A DNA stretch of 61,168 nucleotides from NCBI GenBank assembly GCA_903834145.1, contig CAILHY010000007.1:1-61168 (forward strand), read 5' to 3'. A program made the translations under genes and the position numbers. Every line of letters begins with the position of its first letter. The stretch's first letter is position 1. Below are positions 1 through 8,643 of this stretch, in pieces. Source of the DNA: an uncultured Actinomycetes bacterium (GTDB lineage: Bacteria > Actinomycetota > Actinomycetes > Nanopelagicales > Nanopelagicaceae). Under the pieces are notes generated by a model. That model searched no databases. It was not told the origin of the DNA and was given only the letters and a program-made list of their open reading frames with translations.

Positions 1-474
1 ATGTTCTAGTTCCTCTACATGATTTTTCTTGAAGGCGCTATATGCAAGTAAGTTGTATCGAACGAGTGCAATTATGGGAAGCCAGATACTGCCAAGAATC
101 GTGCCATCGATGATCCTGACCCACATAGGCAGCGCATCGACAAGGCCAAAAGGTCTCATAAGCAATGATGACGATATGCCCTGTAGCACTCCGCCAATGC
201 CGGTAATCAAGATCGTTTCTCCAGCGAGTAAGGGCCTTGAAGTTAGGTATTTTCGTATACCAAGTAGGCCCCACACTGTTAATCCAAAGACAAAGAAACT
301 TAGTGCAAATGTCGAAATTAACGCTACGGCATCTACCCAATGCAATACTGATTCTTTATTGGCTAGAAGTGCATACGGAATAGCGATAACGAAGAATGTG
401 ATGAATGAACCTTTATCGGCCGTCCACTTACTCGTGAGGGCTTGATAAAAGAGTCTGTCATCGACATCTTTCAC
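1..474 (-). CDS. Membrane protein, N-terminal part (probable two-component sensor), cut by window edge
   Basis: An open frame runs leftward from a GTG at 474 to the window edge (158 codons) without a stop. The GTG lies 4 bp after the stop of the response regulator gene, with an AAAGGAAT-type ribosome site just ahead. The product starts with about 20 polar residues (MKDVDDRLFYQALTSK) and then shows four hydrophobic segments, roughly at residues 23-41, 47-72, 80-102 and 117-135. No kinase motif is visible because the C-terminal part lies outside the window. The operon position directly after a LuxR-type regulator suggests a sensor kinase with a multi-pass N-terminal sensor. That role is inference; it could also be an unrelated membrane protein. 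Confidence 0.6.
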   Translation of the reverse strand, partial: MKDVDDRLFYQALTSKWTADKGSFITFFVIAIPYALLANKESVLHWVDAVALISTFALSFFVFGLTVWGLLGIRKYLTSRPLLAGETILITGIGGVLQGISSSLLMRPFGLVDALPMWVRIIDGTILGSIWLPIIALVRYNLLAYSAFKKNHVEELEH

Positions 475-478
475 GAAC

Positions 479-1147
479 CTATATTCCTTTAATCAATCTG
501 AAATAAGTGCGCGCAATCTGGACACGTTGATTGATTGTCTCATCTTGTTCCAGATGAAGAATCTTGGCAAGGCGTGCTATTGAGTTTTCCGTTGACTTAA
601 CGGTTGTAAAACGACGCTTTGATATTTCCGTATTAGAAAGTCCCAATGCGATCAATCGCATAAGTTCTATTTGAGTATCGGTAAAAGGAGTTTGATGTTG
701 CGCACCATTATTCCTGGAAGCCTTCTTATCGCCAGGATTTGCAATTGCTTGAATCGCTTCGTGAATACTTCGCATGAGAGCTTCCGGGGTGTCCACTTTA
801 GATTTCTGTTGGTAAATCACATGAGGCGGTACGGGACGCAGGTTAGGACGAAGCAATCGTGGATCAGGAAGGGATGAAAGAATAACGATTCCTACACTTG
901 AATCTTTTTCGCGCATCGCGTAAGCGATATCAATTCCTGTTGGTCCATCCCCAAGATCAAGATCAAGGGTTACAACATCAGGGTGATGGAGTTGAAAGAG
1001 CTTCATTGCCGCCTGAGCATTTGATGCACTACCTACGACACGAAGTCCACCGGCAACCAAAGACTCGGAAAGTATTGTCCGAGAGAAGTTTTCATCCTCG
1101 ACCACGAGTACTCCGAGAGCGAGTGCAGCTTCGGTTGCAATTTTCAT
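479..1147 (-). CDS. Response regulator with LuxR-type DNA-binding domain
   Basis: This is a 222-residue two-domain regulator. The receiver domain shows the acidic pair E17/D18 in VVEDE, the phospho-acceptor D62 in VVTLD, and K115. The C-terminal helix-turn-helix (about 155-200, SNTEISKRRF..KSTENSI) is of the LuxR/FixJ type. It is expected to bind DNA after phosphorylation by a partner kinase, probably the membrane protein that follows 4 bp downstream. The ATG at 1147 was chosen because the receiver beta-1 strand begins about 12 residues later. In-frame GTG codons at 1183 and 1171 would add up to 12 residues and cannot be excluded. Divergent orientation from the signal peptidase/TasA-like genes makes that module a plausible target. 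Confidence 0.85.
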   Translation of the reverse strand: MKIATEAALALGVLVVEDENFSRTILSESLVAGGLRVVGSASNAQAAMKLFQLHHPDVVTLDLDLGDGPTGIDIAYAMREKDSSVGIVILSSLPDPRLLRPNLRPVPPHVIYQQKSKVDTPEALMRSIHEAIQAIANPGDKKASRNNGAQHQTPFTDTQIELMRLIALGLSNTEISKRRFTTVKSTENSIARLAKILHLEQDETINQRVQIARTYFRLIKGI

Positions 1148-1507
1148 TGGGAAAATATACGAGACAATCACCCCAAAAATCACCCTTTTTATGTGGGGAT
1201 AACCTTATGGCTGGTCAAAACGAGGAGTCTAGAAGTATCAATGTCGAGTCTTTCTGGCAGATCAGTGGAGCAAAAGAAAGAGCTATCGATGACGTTCAGT
1301 CTAAGGATTCCCCTACACCAATAAGTTGAGTAAACAATTGGTCTAGGGGGTAACTCCCCAGTTTCGTGAAAATCCGTGGGTGATATTGCCCTGCATATTC
1401 ACGTACTTCTATCTTTCCGCAACGGATTTGCACATGACATGCAACGAACCGCGTACCAAATCTTTTTCATTGCGACATCCAAGTACCACTAACGAAAGGT
1501 GAGTGAG
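1148..1507. other. Divergent intergenic region between response regulator and signal peptidase
   Basis: About 360 bp lie between two divergently transcribed genes and should hold both promoters. It contains a strong inverted repeat (1310-1349) and an adjacent G5/C4 hairpin (1346-1359). A 40-codon open frame (1207-1329, MAGQNEESRS...) ends inside the loop of the first repeat. It has no clear ribosome site and no recognisable family, so I do not call it a gene. No tRNA or known riboswitch form is visible. Confidence 0.5.
1310..1349. promoter_or_regulatory. 13-bp inverted repeat upstream of the signal peptidase gene
   Basis: CCCCTACACCAAT (1310-1322) pairs with ATTGGTCTAGGGG (1337-1349), 12 of 13 positions, around a 14-nt loop. 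The right arm overlaps a second possible stem, GGGGG (1346-1350) with CCCC (1356-1359), so the two structures cannot form together. No T-tract follows. It could be a regulator operator or a leader-RNA switch for the genes starting at 1508. Confidence 0.45.
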
Positions 1508-2140
1508 ATGGCAACACATACTGTTTCACGCAGGAGTGTAAATAGAGGTACTGCACGATTTAACGTTGCGTTTTTGTTTAGCCTTGTCTTAGTACTTGTG
1601 GCTCCCGCTCTTATCACTGCCTATTTCGGAATCACTATTCACACGGTCATGTCCGGCAGCATGCAGCCGACCATGAATCCTGGGGATGAACTTATAGCCG
1701 ACGTTATCCCGGCCAACCACGTCCAGGTGGGCGATGTCATTTTGTATCTCAACCCAGATAACTGGGAGATGACGGCTCACAGAGTTGTCAAGAAGACACA
1801 AGATGGTCAAGGAATCAAACTTGTCATGCAAGGCGATGCAAACCCAACTCCCGATCCTGAAGTTGCCTACAGCGGGCTCCAGCCAATCCGTCAAGTGGTT
1901 TACACGATTCCCAAAATTGGTTACGTATTGGATCTCCTTTCTTCCACAGTCGTGAAGACACTTGGCGGAGTTCTGTTGATCCTGATCAACATCTTTTTCT
2001 TTATGAAGATGCGGCGCAAAGAGTTAGCCGTAGCTATCGCCCCCACTGGGCGAATTATGTCTAGGGATGGATTGCGTGAGGCTCCCCGCCTGTCTGAGGA
2101 AGAGCGCTACCAACAACTAGAGAAATTTACAAATAACTAA
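1508..2140 (+). CDS. sipW: Signal peptidase I, ER/SipW type
   Basis: This 210-residue membrane serine protease removes signal peptides from exported proteins. A transmembrane segment (about 19-41) is followed by the catalytic serine region SGSMQPTMNPGDE (S51), then TAHRV with H91 in place of the bacterial general-base lysine, which marks the archaeal/ER/SipW (S26B) class. GDAN (109-112) is a further family box. A second membrane segment (about 150-168) precedes a basic cytoplasmic tail. The ATG at 1508 follows AAAGGTGAG at good spacing; a GTG at 1499 overlaps that ribosome site. SipW enzymes are usually dedicated to TasA/camelysin-type substrates, and two such genes follow directly. Confidence 0.9.
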   Translation: MATHTVSRRSVNRGTARFNVAFLFSLVLVLVAPALITAYFGITIHTVMSGSMQPTMNPGDELIADVIPANHVQVGDVILYLNPDNWEMTAHRVVKKTQDGQGIKLVMQGDANPTPDPEVAYSGLQPIRQVVYTIPKIGYVLDLLSSTVVKTLGGVLLILINIFFFMKMRRKELAVAIAPTGRIMSRDGLREAPRLSEEERYQQLEKFTNN

Positions 2141-2180
2141 AGATGCTTTTTCTAGCCTGCCCCTCAGGCACAGCAATAGA

Positions 2181-2228
2181 ACCAACTACTAGCACCACCA
2201 ACTACTAGCACCACCAACTACTAGCAAG
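2181..2228 (+). repeat. Tandem 16-bp repeat, three copies
   Basis: ACCAACTACTAGCACC occurs at 2181 and 2197, and a third copy with a changed end at 2213-2228. The array sits in the gap between the signal peptidase stop (2140) and the first TasA-like gene, just ahead of its ribosome site. A small GCCTG/CAGGC hairpin (2155-2169) precedes it. Confidence 0.85.
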
Positions 2229-2243
2229 TGAGGAATACACACT

Positions 2244-2957
2244 ATGTCGATATCAACAGCAGCTCTGAGAAGCTCGTTATTTAGTTTCAATGGGAGCGCT
2301 TCTAGCTTGATAGGTAAAGGCGCACTTTTGGTCGTTGCCGGTGTCATTGGTACCGCAGGTATCACTGAAGGTGCATCCGCAACTTTGGATGCTGTCGCAT
2401 TCAACACAAGCCCGCAAGGCATATCTGGCGGTATCTTGAAATTAGAAGCAACCGAACGTGGAGACGGCTTCACTCAACCAATTCAGAAGATTGCTCCTGG
2501 TGACACAGTTAATCGATTTGTTGAATACAAGAACAGTGGCGACTTGGCTGGAAAGAGTCTTTCTGTTTCTGCACTCGACACATCTTTGACCTCTACTTTG
2601 CTCACCTCTAGTGCAGTAAAAGGTCTTCAGGTAACCATCACCCGTTGCTCCAATGTTGGAGGAACTGCGGCATGGACATCGGCTGGAGTATGTGAAACAG
2701 CGGCGCATGTTGCCGGTACGACAACAGATGTTCTCGTATCCACTCCAATCACCAGCGTAATTGCAAGTGCACAGTCCTTGATTTCAACGATGGCCGTCGA
2801 TGAGGTTGCCTCTTTGAAGTTCTCAATCGTGCTACCTGATCAAGCAGAAACTACAACAAATGGCGTGTTGCCATCACCAACAGTTCAGGGAGCTGCAGCT
2901 CTGTTGCAATTCAAGCTTCGTGAAATCCAACGTGACGCATCAACAACCAACTCCTAA
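2244..2957 (+). CDS. TasA/camelysin-like exported protein 1
   Basis: The 237-residue protein has a hydrophobic export segment (about 22-40) and a likely cleavage site after EGASA (46). The mature start TLDAVAFNTSPQGISGGILKL resembles the N-terminus of SipW-processed TasA/camelysin-family proteins, which build extracellular fibres or surface layers in other bacteria. Two cysteines in RGLQ-type context (KGLQ..C..C) may form a disulfide. The C-terminus LRE.Q..A.TTNS is shared with the next gene product. It follows the SipW-type peptidase on the same strand. The family assignment rests on the N-terminal pattern and gene context; the actual assembly is unknown. The stop codon lies at the start of a decamer repeat array. 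Confidence 0.75.
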   Translation: MSISTAALRSSLFSFNGSASSLIGKGALLVVAGVIGTAGITEGASATLDAVAFNTSPQGISGGILKLEATERGDGFTQPIQKIAPGDTVNRFVEYKNSGDLAGKSLSVSALDTSLTSTLLTSSAVKGLQVTITRCSNVGGTAAWTSAGVCETAAHVAGTTTDVLVSTPITSVIASAQSLISTMAVDEVASLKFSIVLPDQAETTTNGVLPSPTVQGAAALLQFKLREIQRDASTTNS

Positions 2958-3008
2958 TAAATCCTAATAAATCCTAATAAATCCTAATAAATCCTAATAA
3001 ATCCTAAT
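2952..3008 (+). repeat. Decamer tandem array with TCCTAA core, starting at a stop codon
   Basis: TCCTAATAAA is repeated with an exact 10-bp period, five full copies plus TCCTAAT. The first copy contains the last serine codon and stop codon of the TasA-like gene. Because 10 is not a multiple of three, the repeated TAA falls into all reading frames. Confidence 0.95.
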
Positions 3009-3047
3009 TAATAGGAACGAGACTAAAAAGAAATAGAGGTTCGAGAT

Positions 3048-3079
3048 GGGATTTCATGCCGGTGCAGGTGTGAAATCCC
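3048..3079 (+). terminator. Hairpin between the two TasA-like genes (possible attenuator or terminator)
   Basis: GGGATTTCA (3048-3056) and TGAAATCCC (3071-3079) form a perfect 9-bp stem with a 14-nt loop. Only CTTTC follows, so termination would be weak. It lies 40 bp before a strong ribosome site and could limit read-through or protect one transcript end to set the ratio of the two proteins. Confidence 0.45.
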
Positions 3080-3119
3080 TTTCGGACAACATCCACTACT
3101 AATCAAAGGAGGAAGTGAA

Positions 3120-3854
3120 ATGGGTCTACGCACTAATGGGCTATTACAAGGAAAAATCAGTTCTTCAGTCTTATTAAAAACCTCAATTCTCGTTGTTGCA
3201 GCGCTCATTGGCACTGGCGCGGTAACTGAAGGAGCATCCGCTACTTTGGACGCTGTTGCTTATAACGCGACACCTCAAACAATTAGTTCTGGCACATTGA
3301 AATTTGATACACCCACAGCCGTATCTGGAAGCACTGGCTTCTCCGCAACATTCGCCAACATGAATCCAGGTGATACTCGAACCGTAGGAATCGAATACAC
3401 GAACTCGGGCACAAGTGGTGGAGTCGGAATGGCTCTTTCTGCAGGTGTCGCTGCATCGAATAATCTTTCAAGTGATGCTTCGCGCGGTTTACAGGTAGTT
3501 GTATCGGCTTGTTCAGTCGCTTGGTCCTATCCTGCAGGATCTTGTGGTGGCACGACAACTGTTGTGGTCGCCACAAGCCTCAGTGCGCTCGTTGCCGCGA
3601 GCGCTAATGGAGTTGCTTTAACCGGAATTACGACTTTGGCATCTGCCGCGGTGCTGCATCTGCAATTCGCTGTTGGTTTGCCAAATGCTACGAATAACGA
3701 AGTATGGGTAAATGGGGCTGCGCCAACGGGTCAATCCATTCCGGGATACGGAACAGCGACTGCCATTTCTGGCGGAACGATTACTGGACTAAGTGCATCT
3801 GTCACTTGGGTTCTACGTGAGCGTCAAGCTACGGGTGCAACAACGAACTCCTAA
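3120..3854 (+). CDS. TasA/camelysin-like exported protein 2
   Basis: This 244-residue paralogue of the preceding protein has an export segment at about 18-36 and a likely cleavage after EGASA (41). The mature start TLDAVAYNATPQTISSGTLKF is almost the same as in protein 1. It keeps the GLQ..C..C cysteine pair and ends in LRERQATGATTNS. The start ATG follows AAAGGAGGAAG, the strongest ribosome site in this module, which suggests high expression. The central region is rich in A, G, S, T and V, as expected for a beta-rich surface subunit. It is probably the main SipW substrate here; that ranking is inference from the ribosome site. Confidence 0.75.
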   Translation: MGLRTNGLLQGKISSSVLLKTSILVVAALIGTGAVTEGASATLDAVAYNATPQTISSGTLKFDTPTAVSGSTGFSATFANMNPGDTRTVGIEYTNSGTSGGVGMALSAGVAASNNLSSDASRGLQVVVSACSVAWSYPAGSCGGTTTVVVATSLSALVAASANGVALTGITTLASAAVLHLQFAVGLPNATNNEVWVNGAAPTGQSIPGYGTATAISGGTITGLSASVTWVLRERQATGATTNS

Positions 3855-3891
3855 TACATATGAGTTTGTAGTTTAGGGAAAGGCAAAAGCT

Positions 3892-4683
3892 GTGAAGAGA
3901 TTGGTCTGTGCTGTACTGAGCGCACTGTTTGTGCTGCTTGGTGCAACGCAGGCCAATCTCGCTTTTGCTGGATTAGTGACAATTGCAAGCCAATCTTCGC
4001 CGCAAGCAATGAGTTCTGGCAGGCCTGTGGTGTTTCCGGCAGCGAGTTCTACAACATCAAATCTTGCCTCGTACACTTTGCCGACATTTACTGCGGTGGG
4101 AAGTTGTGTGTCGGGATTTACGCTAGTGACGTCCGCATCGACCCCGTCAGGTTCAACGGTAATAACGCTAACAACCGCACCGCCGGCCTACACGGTCGGG
4201 ATGACAGCGGCCCGCACTGGAATCCCTTCCAACACAAAAGTTACCGCAATCTCCGCCGTTGTTCCTTATTCAATAACTATTTCTAATGCAACAACTGCGA
4301 CAATCAACATCGGACGTAACGTCACATTTACGGGCTGTCCCTACCAGCAGTATTTCAGTATTAATAACACTGGCAATTTGGCTGTCACAAGTATCGGTAT
4401 TGCACAAACGGTTACAGTCTCCAGTACCGACACGATGGCTCTTCAATGGTGCACCACGGGTTGGACTAACGAAGCATCAGCAACATGCGCGGGTTCAATC
4501 AATACGATCATGACAACCAGTGGAACAACCGGCAGTCAGTATGTAAATGCATCTATACCAATTCCAGCTACAAATGGCACTGCCAGAATCAGGGCATTTA
4601 CAAATGTCAGCGGAAACACCACCACTATTAATATCATCATGTCCACCGCGCTAAATCTCGCGCAAGAAACGACTCACCTCTAG
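3892..4683 (+). CDS. Secreted protein, distant relative of the TasA-like pair
   Basis: A classical signal peptide (basic MKRLV, hydrophobic to about 22, AFA at 24-26) leads a 263-residue protein rich in T, S, A and N. The mature start carries SSPQAMSSG, matching TPQTISSG and SPQGISGG of the two TasA-like proteins, and LQWC...C matches their cysteine pair. A segment with YTVGM..TGIPSNTKVTAIS resembles a common beta-repeat of surface proteins. It lacks the C-terminal TTNS. The GTG start at 3892 follows GGGAAAGG. Its signal peptide looks suited to the ordinary signal peptidase instead of SipW. It may be an accessory or capping subunit; that is inference. Confidence 0.6.
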   Translation: MKRLVCAVLSALFVLLGATQANLAFAGLVTIASQSSPQAMSSGRPVVFPAASSTTSNLASYTLPTFTAVGSCVSGFTLVTSASTPSGSTVITLTTAPPAYTVGMTAARTGIPSNTKVTAISAVVPYSITISNATTATINIGRNVTFTGCPYQQYFSINNTGNLAVTSIGIAQTVTVSSTDTMALQWCTTGWTNEASATCAGSINTIMTTSGTTGSQYVNASIPIPATNGTARIRAFTNVSGNTTTINIIMSTALNLAQETTHL

Positions 4684-4717
4684 CAGGTTTTGCAACGGGC
4701 GCAGGTATGCTCGCGCT

Positions 4718-5314
4718 ATGCGTCGAATAATTGCACTCGTGCTTTCCTCAGTTACTTTATTAATAACTCTTCCTCAGAGCGCCAAAGCAGCTCCTATTTA
4801 TGCATTCCCTATTGTTGGATGCACGTATACATACGCTCACTCGCACCATAACTATCCGGCTACCGATATCTTGACTAAAAAGGGATGCAAGTTTGTTGCC
4901 ACCACGGCCGGCACCGTTGATGAAGTTAATCGTGTAGATAAGTGGAGCGGAAAGACAAATCTCGGCGCTGATCGCGGTGGCTTATTTGTTTCCATCCTTG
5001 GCGATGATGGCGTGCGCTACTACGGATCGCACTTGAGCAAAGTTGCCGTAGGGATTGAACCGGGAGTACGTGTTGCTGCTGGGGATTTGCTGGGTTTAGT
5101 TGGAACATCAGGAGATGCCCGAGGGACTGCCTCTCATGTTCACTACGGAATTTCTTGGCCAACACCGCCAGCTATTTGGTGGGTACGGCGCGGAGAGTTA
5201 TATCCATGGAAATATCTCGATGCGTGGAAAGTCGGAAAAGATCTTTCTCCTGCAAAATCAGTGGCCGCACTTGAGAAGAAAGTGGGAACCGTTCCCAAAC
5301 AGATCGGTTACTAA
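4718..5314 (+). CDS. Secreted M23-family (LytM-like) metallopeptidase
   Basis: This 198-residue protein has a signal peptide that ends near SAKA (24). Zinc-site features of M23 peptidases are present: HHNYPATD (H43/H44 and D50), H105 in GSHLS, and the HVH pair at 140-142. GTSGDARGTASHVHYG is the typical M23 signature region. Such enzymes cut peptidoglycan cross-links, though several family members are inactive scaffolds. The gene closes the exported-protein module and ends just before a strong terminator. It may adjust the wall for export or surface assembly. Confidence 0.8.
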   Translation: MRRIIALVLSSVTLLITLPQSAKAAPIYAFPIVGCTYTYAHSHHNYPATDILTKKGCKFVATTAGTVDEVNRVDKWSGKTNLGADRGGLFVSILGDDGVRYYGSHLSKVAVGIEPGVRVAAGDLLGLVGTSGDARGTASHVHYGISWPTPPAIWWVRRGELYPWKYLDAWKVGKDLSPAKSVAALEKKVGTVPKQIGY

Positions 5315-5320
5315 ATTAAG

Positions 5321-5350
5321 AAAGGCCCCTCGATTTCTCGAGGGGCCTTT
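5321..5350. terminator. Bidirectional intrinsic terminator
   Basis: AAAGGCCCCTCGA (5321-5333) and TCGAGGGGCCTTT (5338-5350) form a perfect 13-bp stem with a TTTC loop and flanking A and T tracts. It serves the M23 gene from the left and cspA from the right. Confidence 0.95.
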
Positions 5351-5370
5351 CTCTTTAAAAGTGGTGAGTA

Positions 5371-5574
5371 TTAGTTAGCGTTCACTGCATCGGCCTGAGG
5401 ACCCTTTGGACCCTGTACGACCTCGAATGAAACTGACTGACCCTCTTCAAGGGACTTGTAACCGTTTCCTTGGATTGCTGAGTAGTGAACGAATACATCT
5501 TGTCCGCCACCATCAACTGCAATGAAACCGAAACCCTTTTCAGAGTTGAACCACTTAACTGTGCCTGTTGCCAT
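5371..5574 (-). CDS. cspA: Cold-shock protein, CspA family
   Basis: This 67-residue single cold-shock domain binds single-stranded RNA and [13 protein letters not shown], the RNP1 motif KGFGFI and the RNP2 motif VFVHYSAI are intact, and the C-terminal QGPKGPQA is typical. A longer in-frame start at 5631 adds 19 residues unlike the family, whereas the ATG at 5574 has GAAGGAAAAG ahead of it. The spacer above it (5575-5909) leaves room for a long leader, as is common for cold-shock mRNAs, and holds a hairpin close to the ribosome site. Confidence 0.95.
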
Positions 5575-5909
5575 GTTTTTACTTTTCCTTCGATATGTGG
5601 GGTGAATGAGAAATCCTCGTTCACCAGTCATCCTCTTGCGCCAGCGATACCGAGCAAAGCTTTAGGCCATGAAACGGGTACTGATTAAGCGTCCGACTAG
5701 GGAAAAGAGTACTAGGTCACACTCATATTGCCTAAAGGTCTTTTTGGCTCCGAACCATCTGCTGGCGCAATCTCTCCAAATGCGGTAAAAATAGGCCTCT
5801 CTTTTGCGAAGCCGTGAGGGCTCGTGAGGCGAAATAAGGCAGCTGTGGTGGACCGGGGAAGGTCAAACCAACGCGTAATGACCTAATTCGACCGCAAAAA
5901 GGGAGAGTC
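5575..5909. other. Divergent spacer between cspA and the DUF3145 gene
   Basis: This is a 335-bp region with no convincing gene on either strand. It should contain the cspA leader and promoter and the promoter of the gene at 5910. Apart from the hairpin at 5601-5625 I see no repeat or known RNA element. Confidence 0.5.
5601..5625 (-). promoter_or_regulatory. Hairpin in the cspA leader
   Basis: GGTGAATGAG (5601-5610) and CTCGTTCACC (5616-5625) pair at 9 of 10 positions around a 5-nt loop. On the cspA transcript it ends about 26 nt before the start codon, just ahead of GAAGGAAAAG. It could act as a temperature-sensitive or protective leader structure. Confidence 0.4.
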
Positions 5910-6446
5910 ATGGACCGTATTAACACGCCTGCACCCAAAGGCAGATCTACCATTTCATCTATGGGATCACATGCCCTTTCTAGGGGTTATCTCGTCATTC
6001 ATTCTGCGCCAGCCGCGCTGACCAAACATGTCGAATGGGCGATCCAGAACCTTTTAGGTAAAACCACGGTGATTGATTGGGAGCCACAATCTCTCGTTGC
6101 AGGTACCCATAAGAGCACCCTGGAATGGCGCGATCGCCTGGGGGTAGGGGCGGAGCTCGCAAGCGCGCTACGAGGGTGGCACTACTTGAGATTCGAAATC
6201 CGCGAAGAATCTGTAACGGAGAACGTTCTTTATCGTTTTACTCCAGAGTTAGGCATTCATCGCGCCTTGATTGATGGCGCGGGAAGTGTCTTGATCACCG
6301 AACATCAAGTGATGGGAGCGATGGATCAAGATGAAGATTCATTGCGACAAACCCTTGCCAATGCAATGGGAACTGCATGGGACCTAGAGCTCGAACAATT
6401 TCGTCGCGCTGACTTGGATACAATATCACAATCAAAAGCAATCTAA
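5910..6446 (+). CDS. DUF3145 family protein
   Basis: The 178-residue protein matches the actinobacterial DUF3145 family: RGYLVIHSAPAALTKHVEWAI near the N-terminus, SALRGWHYLRFE in the centre, RFTPELGIHRA, and WDLELEQFR near the C-terminus. The molecular function is unknown. In other actinobacteria this gene sits beside the type II fatty-acid operon, as it does here, though on the opposite strand. The ATG at 5910 follows AAAAAGGGAGAG. An internal ATG at 5961 would give a length closer to some relatives. Confidence 0.85.
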   Translation: MDRINTPAPKGRSTISSMGSHALSRGYLVIHSAPAALTKHVEWAIQNLLGKTTVIDWEPQSLVAGTHKSTLEWRDRLGVGAELASALRGWHYLRFEIREESVTENVLYRFTPELGIHRALIDGAGSVLITEHQVMGAMDQDEDSLRQTLANAMGTAWDLELEQFRRADLDTISQSKAI

Positions 6447-6476
6447 TTCGTAGAATCAGAAAGTAGAATCCTTTAC

Positions 6477-7238
6477 ATGAGTCAACTAAATGAAAGTCCA
6501 ATTATCACGATCGAACGACGCAAAGCAGTCACGATCATCATCTCCTCTGTCATTGTTTCCCTAGCGCTCGCTGGTGGGTTAATGAAAGTTGGCTCAGGAT
6601 TTGCAGCACGGAGCGCGAACGGAATTACTGTCACCGGTTCTGCGAAGGTTTCTGCGGTTGCCGATAATGCTGTCTGGACTCTCAATGTGCAAGCATCGAT
6701 GTCAAAGGTTTCCGATGCCATTGCCAAAGTTGGTTCCGATGTCGATGCGGTGAAGGTATATCTCACAACTGGCGGAGTACCTGCAGATGCGTTGACTCTC
6801 GGTGCTGTCTCCACGTATGCGAATGCTGAATACATCAATGGCAATCCAACGGGTCGCATCTTGTCCCACAATGCCTCACGCGATGTAGTTGTACGAAGTA
6901 AAGATGTTCAATTGCTTTCTAAATTGAGCCAAGGAATAGGTAACTTGTTACAAACTGGTGTGAACGTCAACACGGGTGGCCCTCAATATTATGTTTCCAC
7001 TTTGCCAACCTTACGTCCACAATTACTGGAAGAGGCAATGAAAGATGCGAAGATCCGCGCCGTTGCTCTTACAAAAGCAGTCGGCGGAACCATTGGCGCA
7101 GTTGTCAGTGTTACGACCGGACCTTTTCAAGTGACGACGCCTGATTCAACTATGACCGATGCTGGTGGGGCTTATGACACGACCACGATCAACAAGACAG
7201 TGACATCTACGGTTTCGGTGACCTTTAAAACCAAGTAG
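6477..7238 (+). CDS. SIMPL domain (DUF541) exported protein
   Basis: This 253-residue protein has an N-terminal membrane anchor or signal segment (about 18-40) followed by a SIMPL/DUF541 domain. ANGITVTGSAKVSAVADNAVWTLNV, the central DVVVRSKD and the late KDAKIRAVALTKAVGGTIG are family hallmarks. Members are periplasmic or surface proteins related to BP26/OMP26, and some form ring-shaped oligomers; the role is not settled. It ends 13 bp before the convergent accD gene. Confidence 0.8.
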   Translation: MSQLNESPIITIERRKAVTIIISSVIVSLALAGGLMKVGSGFAARSANGITVTGSAKVSAVADNAVWTLNVQASMSKVSDAIAKVGSDVDAVKVYLTTGGVPADALTLGAVSTYANAEYINGNPTGRILSHNASRDVVVRSKDVQLLSKLSQGIGNLLQTGVNVNTGGPQYYVSTLPTLRPQLLEEAMKDAKIRAVALTKAVGGTIGAVVSVTTGPFQVTTPDSTMTDAGGAYDTTTINKTVTSTVSVTFKTK

Positions 7239-7251
7239 TTCTGACTGAGTT

Positions 7252-8643
7252 CTATAGAGGAATATTGCCGTGGCTACCACGGCGATAGGGAGCGCTTGCA
7301 ATTGCTTGGGCTAGAGCCGAGCGCGTCGTCTTGGGATCGATAATTTCATCGACGGCTCCGATCTCAATAGCACGTTCTACTCCACCTGAAATTTTGTCGT
7401 GCTCTGCCGCCAATTCAAGTTCCATTGTTTCTCGCTGATCCTCTGGAATATCTGCAAGTAAGCGGCGGTGCAATACGCGCACTGCGGCAACGGCGCCCAT
7501 CACGGAGACTTCAGCAGTTGGCCATGCAAATACTTTCGTCGCACCGAGGGATTTGGAGTTCATAGCAACGTAAGCACCGCCATAGGCACGGCGTGTCACA
7601 AGAGTGACACGGGGGACTACGGATTCACCAAATGCGTGAAGCAATTTTGCACCTCGCCTGACTGCGCCTTCCCATTCCTGGCCAGCACCTGGAAGAAATC
7701 CAGGTACATCGGCAATAACAATCAGTGGAATTCCAAAAGCATCGCAGGTGCGAACAAAGCGTGCCGCTTTCTCAGCGGCCGATGAATCAAGAACGCCGCC
7801 TAAATGTTGAGGATTATTAGCAACAACGCCCACCGTTCGCCCACCTAACCTTCCGATAGCGATGAGTATGTTCTCGGCCCAATGCGGATGCAACTCCAGG
7901 ACTTCACCTTCGGTATCCAATATCGCGCGCACCAGCGGGTGTACTTCGTAGGCACGCTTGGTTGGAGGTGGCACTAGGGCTGCAAAATCAAAGTCAGGCA
8001 GATCGGTGGCCATATGTCCTTGATTGGCAAAGAGCGCGGTGACATCGCGAATCTCATCAAAGGCTTCTTGCTCTGTATGTGCAATCACATGAGCGACGCC
8101 GCTATTTTTCTTATGCGCATCCGGTCCGCCGAGCGTTGCAATGTCAATCTTTTCACCCGTCACACTTTTTACTACATCCGGACCCGTAACAAAGATTCGA
8201 CCTTCTGGTGCAAGAACGACAACGTCGGTCAGTGCTGGTCCGTATGCACCGCCACCTGCAGTTGGTCCAAGGACTAATGAGAGCTGTGGAATCTTTCCGC
8301 TGGCCGTGATCATCGCTTGAAAAACTTCGCCGAATGCATGCAGAGATGAAACACCATCGCGCAATCGTGCGCCGCCTGAGTGCCAGATACCGATGATCGG
8401 CAATTGCGTAGCCATCGCTTCTTTGTAAGCGGTCAGAATTACATGAGCGCCGTCAACGCCCAGGGCACCACCATGAAATGTTGCATCGGAGGCAAAGAGA
8501 ACAACTTTATTTCCTTTAACTAATCCCGTTGCCGCCAACATTCCAGATTTATCAATCGGAGAAATAAGTTGAACGGTGCCGGGATCACATAGGCGCGCTA
8601 AACGAAGTTGCGGATCGCGCGGGTCAATCTCAGGTGTGTCCAT
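7252..8643 (-). CDS. accD: Acyl-CoA carboxylase carboxyltransferase subunit (AccD/PccB type)
   Basis: This 463-residue protein contains both crotonase-fold halves of a biotin-dependent carboxyltransferase. IGIWHSGGARLRDGVSSLHAFGE and LGPTAGGGAYGPALTD are the N-half acyl-CoA loops; VIADVPGFLPGAGQEW and RRAYGGAYVAMNSK are the C-half carboxybiotin loops. It makes malonyl-CoA (or methylmalonyl-CoA) from acyl-CoA and carboxybiotin. It is the last gene of the fab operon, 3 bp after fabF, which favours a role in fatty-acid synthesis. The biotinylated alpha subunit is not in the window. Length is somewhat short of the usual 500-530. Confidence 0.93.
   Translation of the reverse strand: MDTPEIDPRDPQLRLARLCDPGTVQLISPIDKSGMLAATGLVKGNKVVLFASDATFHGGALGVDGAHVILTAYKEAMATQLPIIGIWHSGGARLRDGVSSLHAFGEVFQAMITASGKIPQLSLVLGPTAGGGAYGPALTDVVVLAPEGRIFVTGPDVVKSVTGEKIDIATLGGPDAHKKNSGVAHVIAHTEQEAFDEIRDVTALFANQGHMATDLPDFDFAALVPPPTKRAYEVHPLVRAILDTEGEVLELHPHWAENILIAIGRLGGRTVGVVANNPQHLGGVLDSSAAEKAARFVRTCDAFGIPLIVIADVPGFLPGAGQEWEGAVRRGAKLLHAFGESVVPRVTLVTRRAYGGAYVAMNSKSLGATKVFAWPTAEVSVMGAVAAVRVLHRRLLADIPEDQRETMELELAAEHDKISGGVERAIEIGAVDEIIDPKTTRSALAQAIASAPYRRGSHGNIPL

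Follow-up and report, generated by a model that had tools for sequence, protein, structure and literature searches.

A putative TasA-type surface fibre cassette with a linked two-component pair in a freshwater actinobacterium of the Nanopelagicaceae

Results and Discussion

Gene Content of the Window

Positions 1–4683 of the window contain six genes in two divergent arms. One arm encodes a histidine kinase, incomplete here, and a response regulator of LuxR type; the other encodes a signal peptidase of the SipW class, two TasA/camelysin-like proteins and a third exported protein. The results suggested that these six genes are likely to form a self-contained fibre cassette, of the TasA type and with two-component control of its own. 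The cassette would probably let a small freshwater actinobacterium export a TasA-like protein and assemble it into a surface fibre.

The window, that is, the whole stretch of 61,168 nucleotides analysed, is contig C7 of a 33-contig, 1.75 Mb genome (G000), and the contig start falls inside a gene. The first, second and third exported proteins were named TasA1, TasA2 and Tas3 (Table 1). Nanopelagicaceae of fresh water are regarded as free-living streamlined plankton, and streamlined freshwater plankton would be a fair description of the host. Every gene named in the original prediction, which was made from the letters of the window, was present; its "membrane protein" was the incomplete sensor kinase, and the strong terminator that it placed at the end of the gene run was found as a hairpin.

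Table 1. Features at the start of the window.
Feature	Position	Strand	Evidence or remark
Sensor histidine kinase, N-terminal 158 aa, multi-TM, cut by contig start	1–474	-	Complete 590-aa homologues in L033, L034
LuxR-type response regulator	479–1147 (longest ORF to 1183)	-	PF00072; ATG 1147 indicated by homologues
Divergent intergenic region, presumed control region of both arms	1148–1498	.	Conserved stretches
SipW-class signal peptidase	1499–2140 (possible start ATG 1508)	+	TIGR02228; Ser54/His94/Asp113, no Lys dyad
16-bp tandem repeat, 2.9 copies, between sipW and tasA1	2181–2226	.	
TasA/camelysin-like exported protein 1 (TasA1)	2244–2957	+	
10-bp tandem repeat, 6.1 copies	2952–3012	.	One copy fewer in G020
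RNA hairpin upstream of tasA2	3039–3087	+	-33.1 kcal/mol (whole stretch folded), z -4.8; conserved in G020
TasA/camelysin-like exported protein 2 (TasA2)	3120–3854	+	Modelled fold matches TasA
Tas3, distant TasA relative with inserted ~70-aa β domain (aa 75–147)	3892–4683	+	
M23-family peptidase, core gene flanking the insertion, outside the module	4718–5314	+	PF01551, 2e-9
Intrinsic terminator hairpin 3' of the M23 gene	5319–5352	+	-29.2 kcal/mol, z -6.4

The start of the response regulator is more likely at 1147 than at 1183, judging by its homologues. Stretches of the divergent region were conserved among G000 and its sister genomes G019 and G020, and partly in G013. A sigma-70 promoter scan gave no match in this region, and an Rfam scan of positions 1–7500 gave no RNA family match. 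The 10-bp repeat and the strong hairpin lie directly before tasA2, and they may set the subunit ratio or vary expression.

Signal Peptidase and TasA-Type Proteins

The signal peptidase scored 77.3 bits with TIGR02228, the archaeal/SipW-type model (cut-off 51.85), and 58 bits with the stricter Bacillus SipW equivalog NF046067, which needs 190. Ser54, His94 and Asp113 were invariant in 10 peptidase homologues, with spacings of 40 and 19 that we take to be equal to those of B. subtilis SipW; Ser-His-Asp thus replaces Ser-Lys. The proposed SipW class was supported by the TIGR02228 score and these residues.

TasA1 and TasA2 were related to each other in an alignment with a 20-protein family. Singly, neither matched Pfam PF12389 or passed any TasA/camelysin cut-off in Pfam and NCBIfam; the TasA model NF046066 gave TasA1 an E-value of 0.068 (12.6 of 450 bits). 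Whereas the window proteins alone did not reach the M73 camelysin profile (PF12389), 4 of the 20 close homologues matched it, with a best E-value of 4.6e-8. The homologues in L050 (4.6e-8) and L043 (3.8e-6) were above the cut-off and, in one alignment, had 40% and 35% identity to window TasA2 or its close kin, so the window proteins are tied to PF12389 by close relatives that score above its threshold. A profile built from the 20 actinobacterial proteins scored B. subtilis TasA (a sequence identical to PDB 8aur across the mature part) at 19.1 bits, and the best of 2000 shuffles reached 6.4 bits. A PDB sequence search with this profile returned only weak unrelated repeats, TasA being absent.

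The AlphaFold model of TasA2 had a modest mean pLDDT of 59, with a disordered N-terminus and a β-sandwich from residue 72. Foldseek placed TasA structures 5of1 and 5of2 first (probability 1.00, E 0.007–0.008). VIA also placed 5of2 and 5of1 first (Z 10.3 and 10.0, 132–133 residues, rmsd 3.3–3.4), and the fibre form of TasA (8aur) gave Z 7.9. The predicted fold of TasA2, at this modest model confidence, is the TasA jelly-roll. The PF12389 matches of the homologues and the modelled fold thus bore out the claim of two TasA/camelysin-like proteins; a lack of any profile match to TasA/camelysin families, the outcome that would speak against it, was not what was found.

The fold and the conserved interface residues suggest that TasA1 and TasA2 are fibre formers. 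The earliest description of camelysin was as a surface metalloprotease, and that of TasA as an antimicrobial spore-coat protein. The TasA relatives might instead act as a coat, an S-layer-like layer or a monomeric surface or secreted protein with no filament, which is considered unlikely. Several roles have been reported for members of the camelysin/TasA family (PMC9674648, PMC13082335), and fold similarity by itself does not show polymerisation. However, a strand-like segment precedes the jelly-roll in the mature N-termini of TasA1 and TasA2, and the Pro-Gly aligned to TasA P62-G63 was invariant in all 20 actinobacterial proteins. The "proline box" at P62 was reported to be the most conserved part of the TasA protomer interface (PMC10151520). 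Several co-encoded TasA-type subunits together with a third protein also recall the filament operons of Bacillus. These points argue for a fibre.

In another locus (L049:7980–8617), a TasA gene was found in two overlapping frames, a 164-aa ORF and a second TasA-matching frame. This is probably a frameshift or an assembly error.

Tas3, the Third Exported Protein

Most such modules encoded a Tas3-type protein, which usually began with a Sec signal peptide of ordinary appearance. In Rhodoluna, Arthrobacter and Frankiaceae, too, it adjoined sipW-tasA. By profile–profile comparison, compact Tas3 forms matched the TasA set (95.6% probability, E 1.2e-8), and window Tas3 matched a compact form (E 4e-21). 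The third secreted protein, proposed earlier as a TasA relative, is therefore a remote homologue.

The Tas3 insert (residues 75–147) was modelled mostly at pLDDT 70–93. Phage tail tubes, a phage particle protein and a capsule lyase contain small β domains that it resembled (Z 7.5–8.8). The Arthrobacter phage particle protein 8eci had 35% identity to it over 74 residues. The insert is possibly a binding domain common to phages and the cell surface. A fold search with the Tas3 model, whose core was of low confidence and which was matched mainly at the insert, listed neither TasA nor TapA. The gene position suggests that Tas3 may serve as a tip, cap or chaperone in the manner of TapA or CapP.

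Kinase and Response Regulator

The kinase fragment in the window ends before the H-, N- and G-boxes, and these motifs were read from homologues. Full-length homologues in sister genomes G019 and G020 had 590 aa, multiple hydrophobic segments, a conserved His (H419), the motifs EEAINNALQHG and GIGSS and a weak HATPase match. H419 (H-box), EExxxNAxxHG (N-box) and GxG (G-box) were seen in L034 and L042. Because complete homologues carry the HATPase match and the residues of all three boxes, the product of the first gene was identified as a sensor kinase. The response regulator had a PF00072 receiver (1.2e-12), and its LuxR-type C-terminus matched GerE at 0.01, below the Pfam cut-off. The receiver phospho-Asp D61 was invariant among regulator homologues. 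The features of a two-component pair were thus found in both proteins, those of the kinase via its homologues. A much shorter kinase of only 260 aa was encoded in L035:464–1246; in G013, whose kinase has 260 aa, the alignment showed that both hydrophobic blocks were gone and that the catalytic part was kept.

Eight genomes had a full-length match to the kinase above 350 bits, and in six of them (G007, G008, G016, G019, G020 and G025) a sipW gene lay no more than 6 kb from this kinase subfamily. The window-type kinase of G011 was on a different contig from sipW, and no sipW was found near that of the incomplete genome G001. A SipW cluster with unfamiliar exported proteins (L052:4365–13542) carried the kinase-regulator subfamily of the window, which indicates that the pair accompanies SipW clusters of differing cargo.

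Insertion Site and Regulator Adjacency

In 14 genomes from four genera, 23–196 bp separated the M23 gene from a divergent homocysteine-methyltransferase-like gene. In G020, the gap between them was 6,039 bp and contained the kinase, regulator, SipW, TasA1, TasA2 and Tas3 genes, with no other gene of note. G019 and G013 agreed with G020 at the kinase-side junction; in the window strain this junction lies beyond the contig end, and the insertion on both sides was read from G020. Because the block fills this gap, the six genes behave as a unit that was gained, or lost elsewhere, as a whole. Since it lies exactly between the two flanking genes, regulators and exported genes constitute one insertion. 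A kinase match in G009 (C67:62063–62626) adjoined the same methyltransferase-like gene. Gene content at the M23–methyltransferase junction differed among many genomes of the family (e.g., L178, L183, L186, G151 and G070), and M23 was often at contig ends; the junction is a probable variable site.

A response-regulator gene was found within 2.5 kb in 23 of 26 non-redundant SipW + TasA loci of the family, which share ancestry and are non-independent. The corresponding numbers were 8 of 20 for SipW + TasA loci of other taxa and 3 of 50 for SipW loci without TasA, these controls coming mostly from other taxa. The expected background was about 7% (14 receiver domains in 1.75 Mb). The adjoining regulators were of LuxR type (window and L176), OmpR type (L060, L061, L163, Nocardioides L066 and Arthrobacter L072), stand-alone CheY-like receivers and tandem degenerate LuxR types, at least three classes overall.

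The kinase-regulator pair could be a bystander that controls other genes and travels with the module by chance, which is improbable. The modules L043, L172, L174, L083 and L131 are among those with no response regulator nearby; such modules number 3 within the family and 12 of 20 in other taxa, and a regulator is thus dispensable. However, the six genes together make up a single insertion flanked by two conserved genes, different regulator classes recur beside separate module copies, and the kinase subfamily also adjoins other sipW clusters. A putative link of the regulator to the export genes is thus supported by co-insertion and repeated adjacency in relatives. The original prediction drew this link from position in one genome; it is now strengthened by G020 and by the family loci, across which regulator and exported genes were repeatedly, rather than never, adjacent.

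Of 151 family genomes, 111 had the M23 gene, and TasA was absent from most of these; the gene order was commonly SIMPL–DUF3145–cold shock–M23. A functional part of the M23 peptidase in the module, remodelling the wall for fibre passage, is very improbable: the gene shares the strand of tas3 across a 34 bp gap and has copies near modules in L057 and L176, but its wide distribution, its recurring setting and the insertion in G020 mark it as a family-wide core gene at the insertion site, and its earlier inclusion in the export module was rejected.

Paralogous Module

A second module was found in G000 at 6857–14421 of L036 (C32:64000–78557), with SipW, two TasA proteins and Tas3. L036 also encoded a GGDEF-EAL protein, a lipoprotein that weakly matched molybdopterin oxidoreductases and, in tandem, two degenerate regulators of LuxR type in which the receiver acidic pocket is missing. 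The 733-aa membrane protein of L036 was a kinase candidate by position and by the label of a profile made here; this was rejected, as Pfam identified it as GGDEF-EAL. A comparable GGDEF-EAL arrangement was found in genus g7 (L169). The two arrangements suggest that such fibres may be under c-di-GMP control.

Proposed Mechanism

In the proposed cassette, the membrane sensor kinase would phosphorylate the LuxR-type regulator. The phosphorylated regulator would act at the shared region 1148–1498 and switch the sipW-tasA1-tasA2-tas3 operon. Cleavage of both TasA precursors by SipW, a membrane signal peptidase of the Ser/His type, would take place behind ...ASA or close to it and would free the N-terminal strand TLDAVAYN... 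Each jelly-roll subunit could donate its strand to the following one, so that a mixed TasA1/TasA2 filament would form outside the cell. Tas3, with its ordinary-looking signal peptide and inserted β domain, may start, cap or tip the filament, in the position of TapA in B. subtilis and CapP in B. cereus.

A wider reading is tentative, its chance being put somewhat below even. It holds that free-living freshwater actinobacteria carry a self-regulated, insertable fibre cassette in which a dedicated kinase and regulator (with GGDEF-EAL too in the paralogous copy) switch a heteromeric donor-strand fibre, and that Tas3 represents a novel family of tip or assembly proteins, derived from TasA and with exchangeable binding domains.

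Comparison with Known Systems

The tapA-sipW-tasA operon of B. subtilis, like the window, combines a SipW-class peptidase with a jelly-roll subunit of TasA type and has a single accessory protein that is exported. The window differs in having two TasA-type subunits with only remote sequence similarity to TasA. Its accessory protein Tas3 is a distant TasA relative, while TapA has an Ig-fold; a two-component pair is linked to the window genes, while the B. subtilis operon is under SinR control. The sipW-tasA/calY/capP region of B. cereus also has two TasA-type subunits and a third protein, and its regulator and lineage differ from those of the window. TasA and CalY of B. cereus form heterofilaments, and the third protein acts in assembly (PMC13082335). 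CalY/SipW-exported proteins of Actinomycetota, such as an Arthrobacter plasmid CalY family protein, belong to the same protein family as the window TasAs, and the Arthrobacter relatives have the same SipW neighbourhood; unlike the window, most CalY/SipW loci outside the family (the 12 of 20 above) had no response regulator within 2.5 kb. We know of no two-component pair for the archaeal bundling pili (AbpA). AbpA, a TasA-related donor-strand fibre of archaea as cited in PMC9674648, was absent among the listed fold matches.

TasA-type genes were found in 23 of 151 family genomes, and also in Arthrobacter, Nocardioides, Rhodoluna and Frankiaceae. TasA homologues had already been noted in various bacteria and archaea (PMC10151520). 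This published spread, the several Actinomycetota and the Arthrobacter plasmid CalY annotation do not agree with the earlier view of TasA outside Bacillus as exceptional. In a literature search with most subscription papers outside its scope, no study of TasA/camelysin in Actinobacteria or Nanopelagicales was found. The parts of the cassette are of known kinds; the co-inserted regulator–fibre cassette and the Tas3 family look new, and both are concrete, testable targets. If the proposal is true, Nanopelagicaceae would have, in an adhesive or matrix fibre that can be switched, a regulated means of attachment, aggregation or surface shielding, and the TasA filament system would extend to a lineage for which no study of such a fibre came up in the search.

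The genus also has SipW loci of a second kind. SipW-like peptidases with a long N-terminal extension were encoded in L044, L045, L047 and L051, where TasA was absent. In L045 and L051, the extended peptidase adjoined collagen-like proteins with Gly-X-Y repeats.
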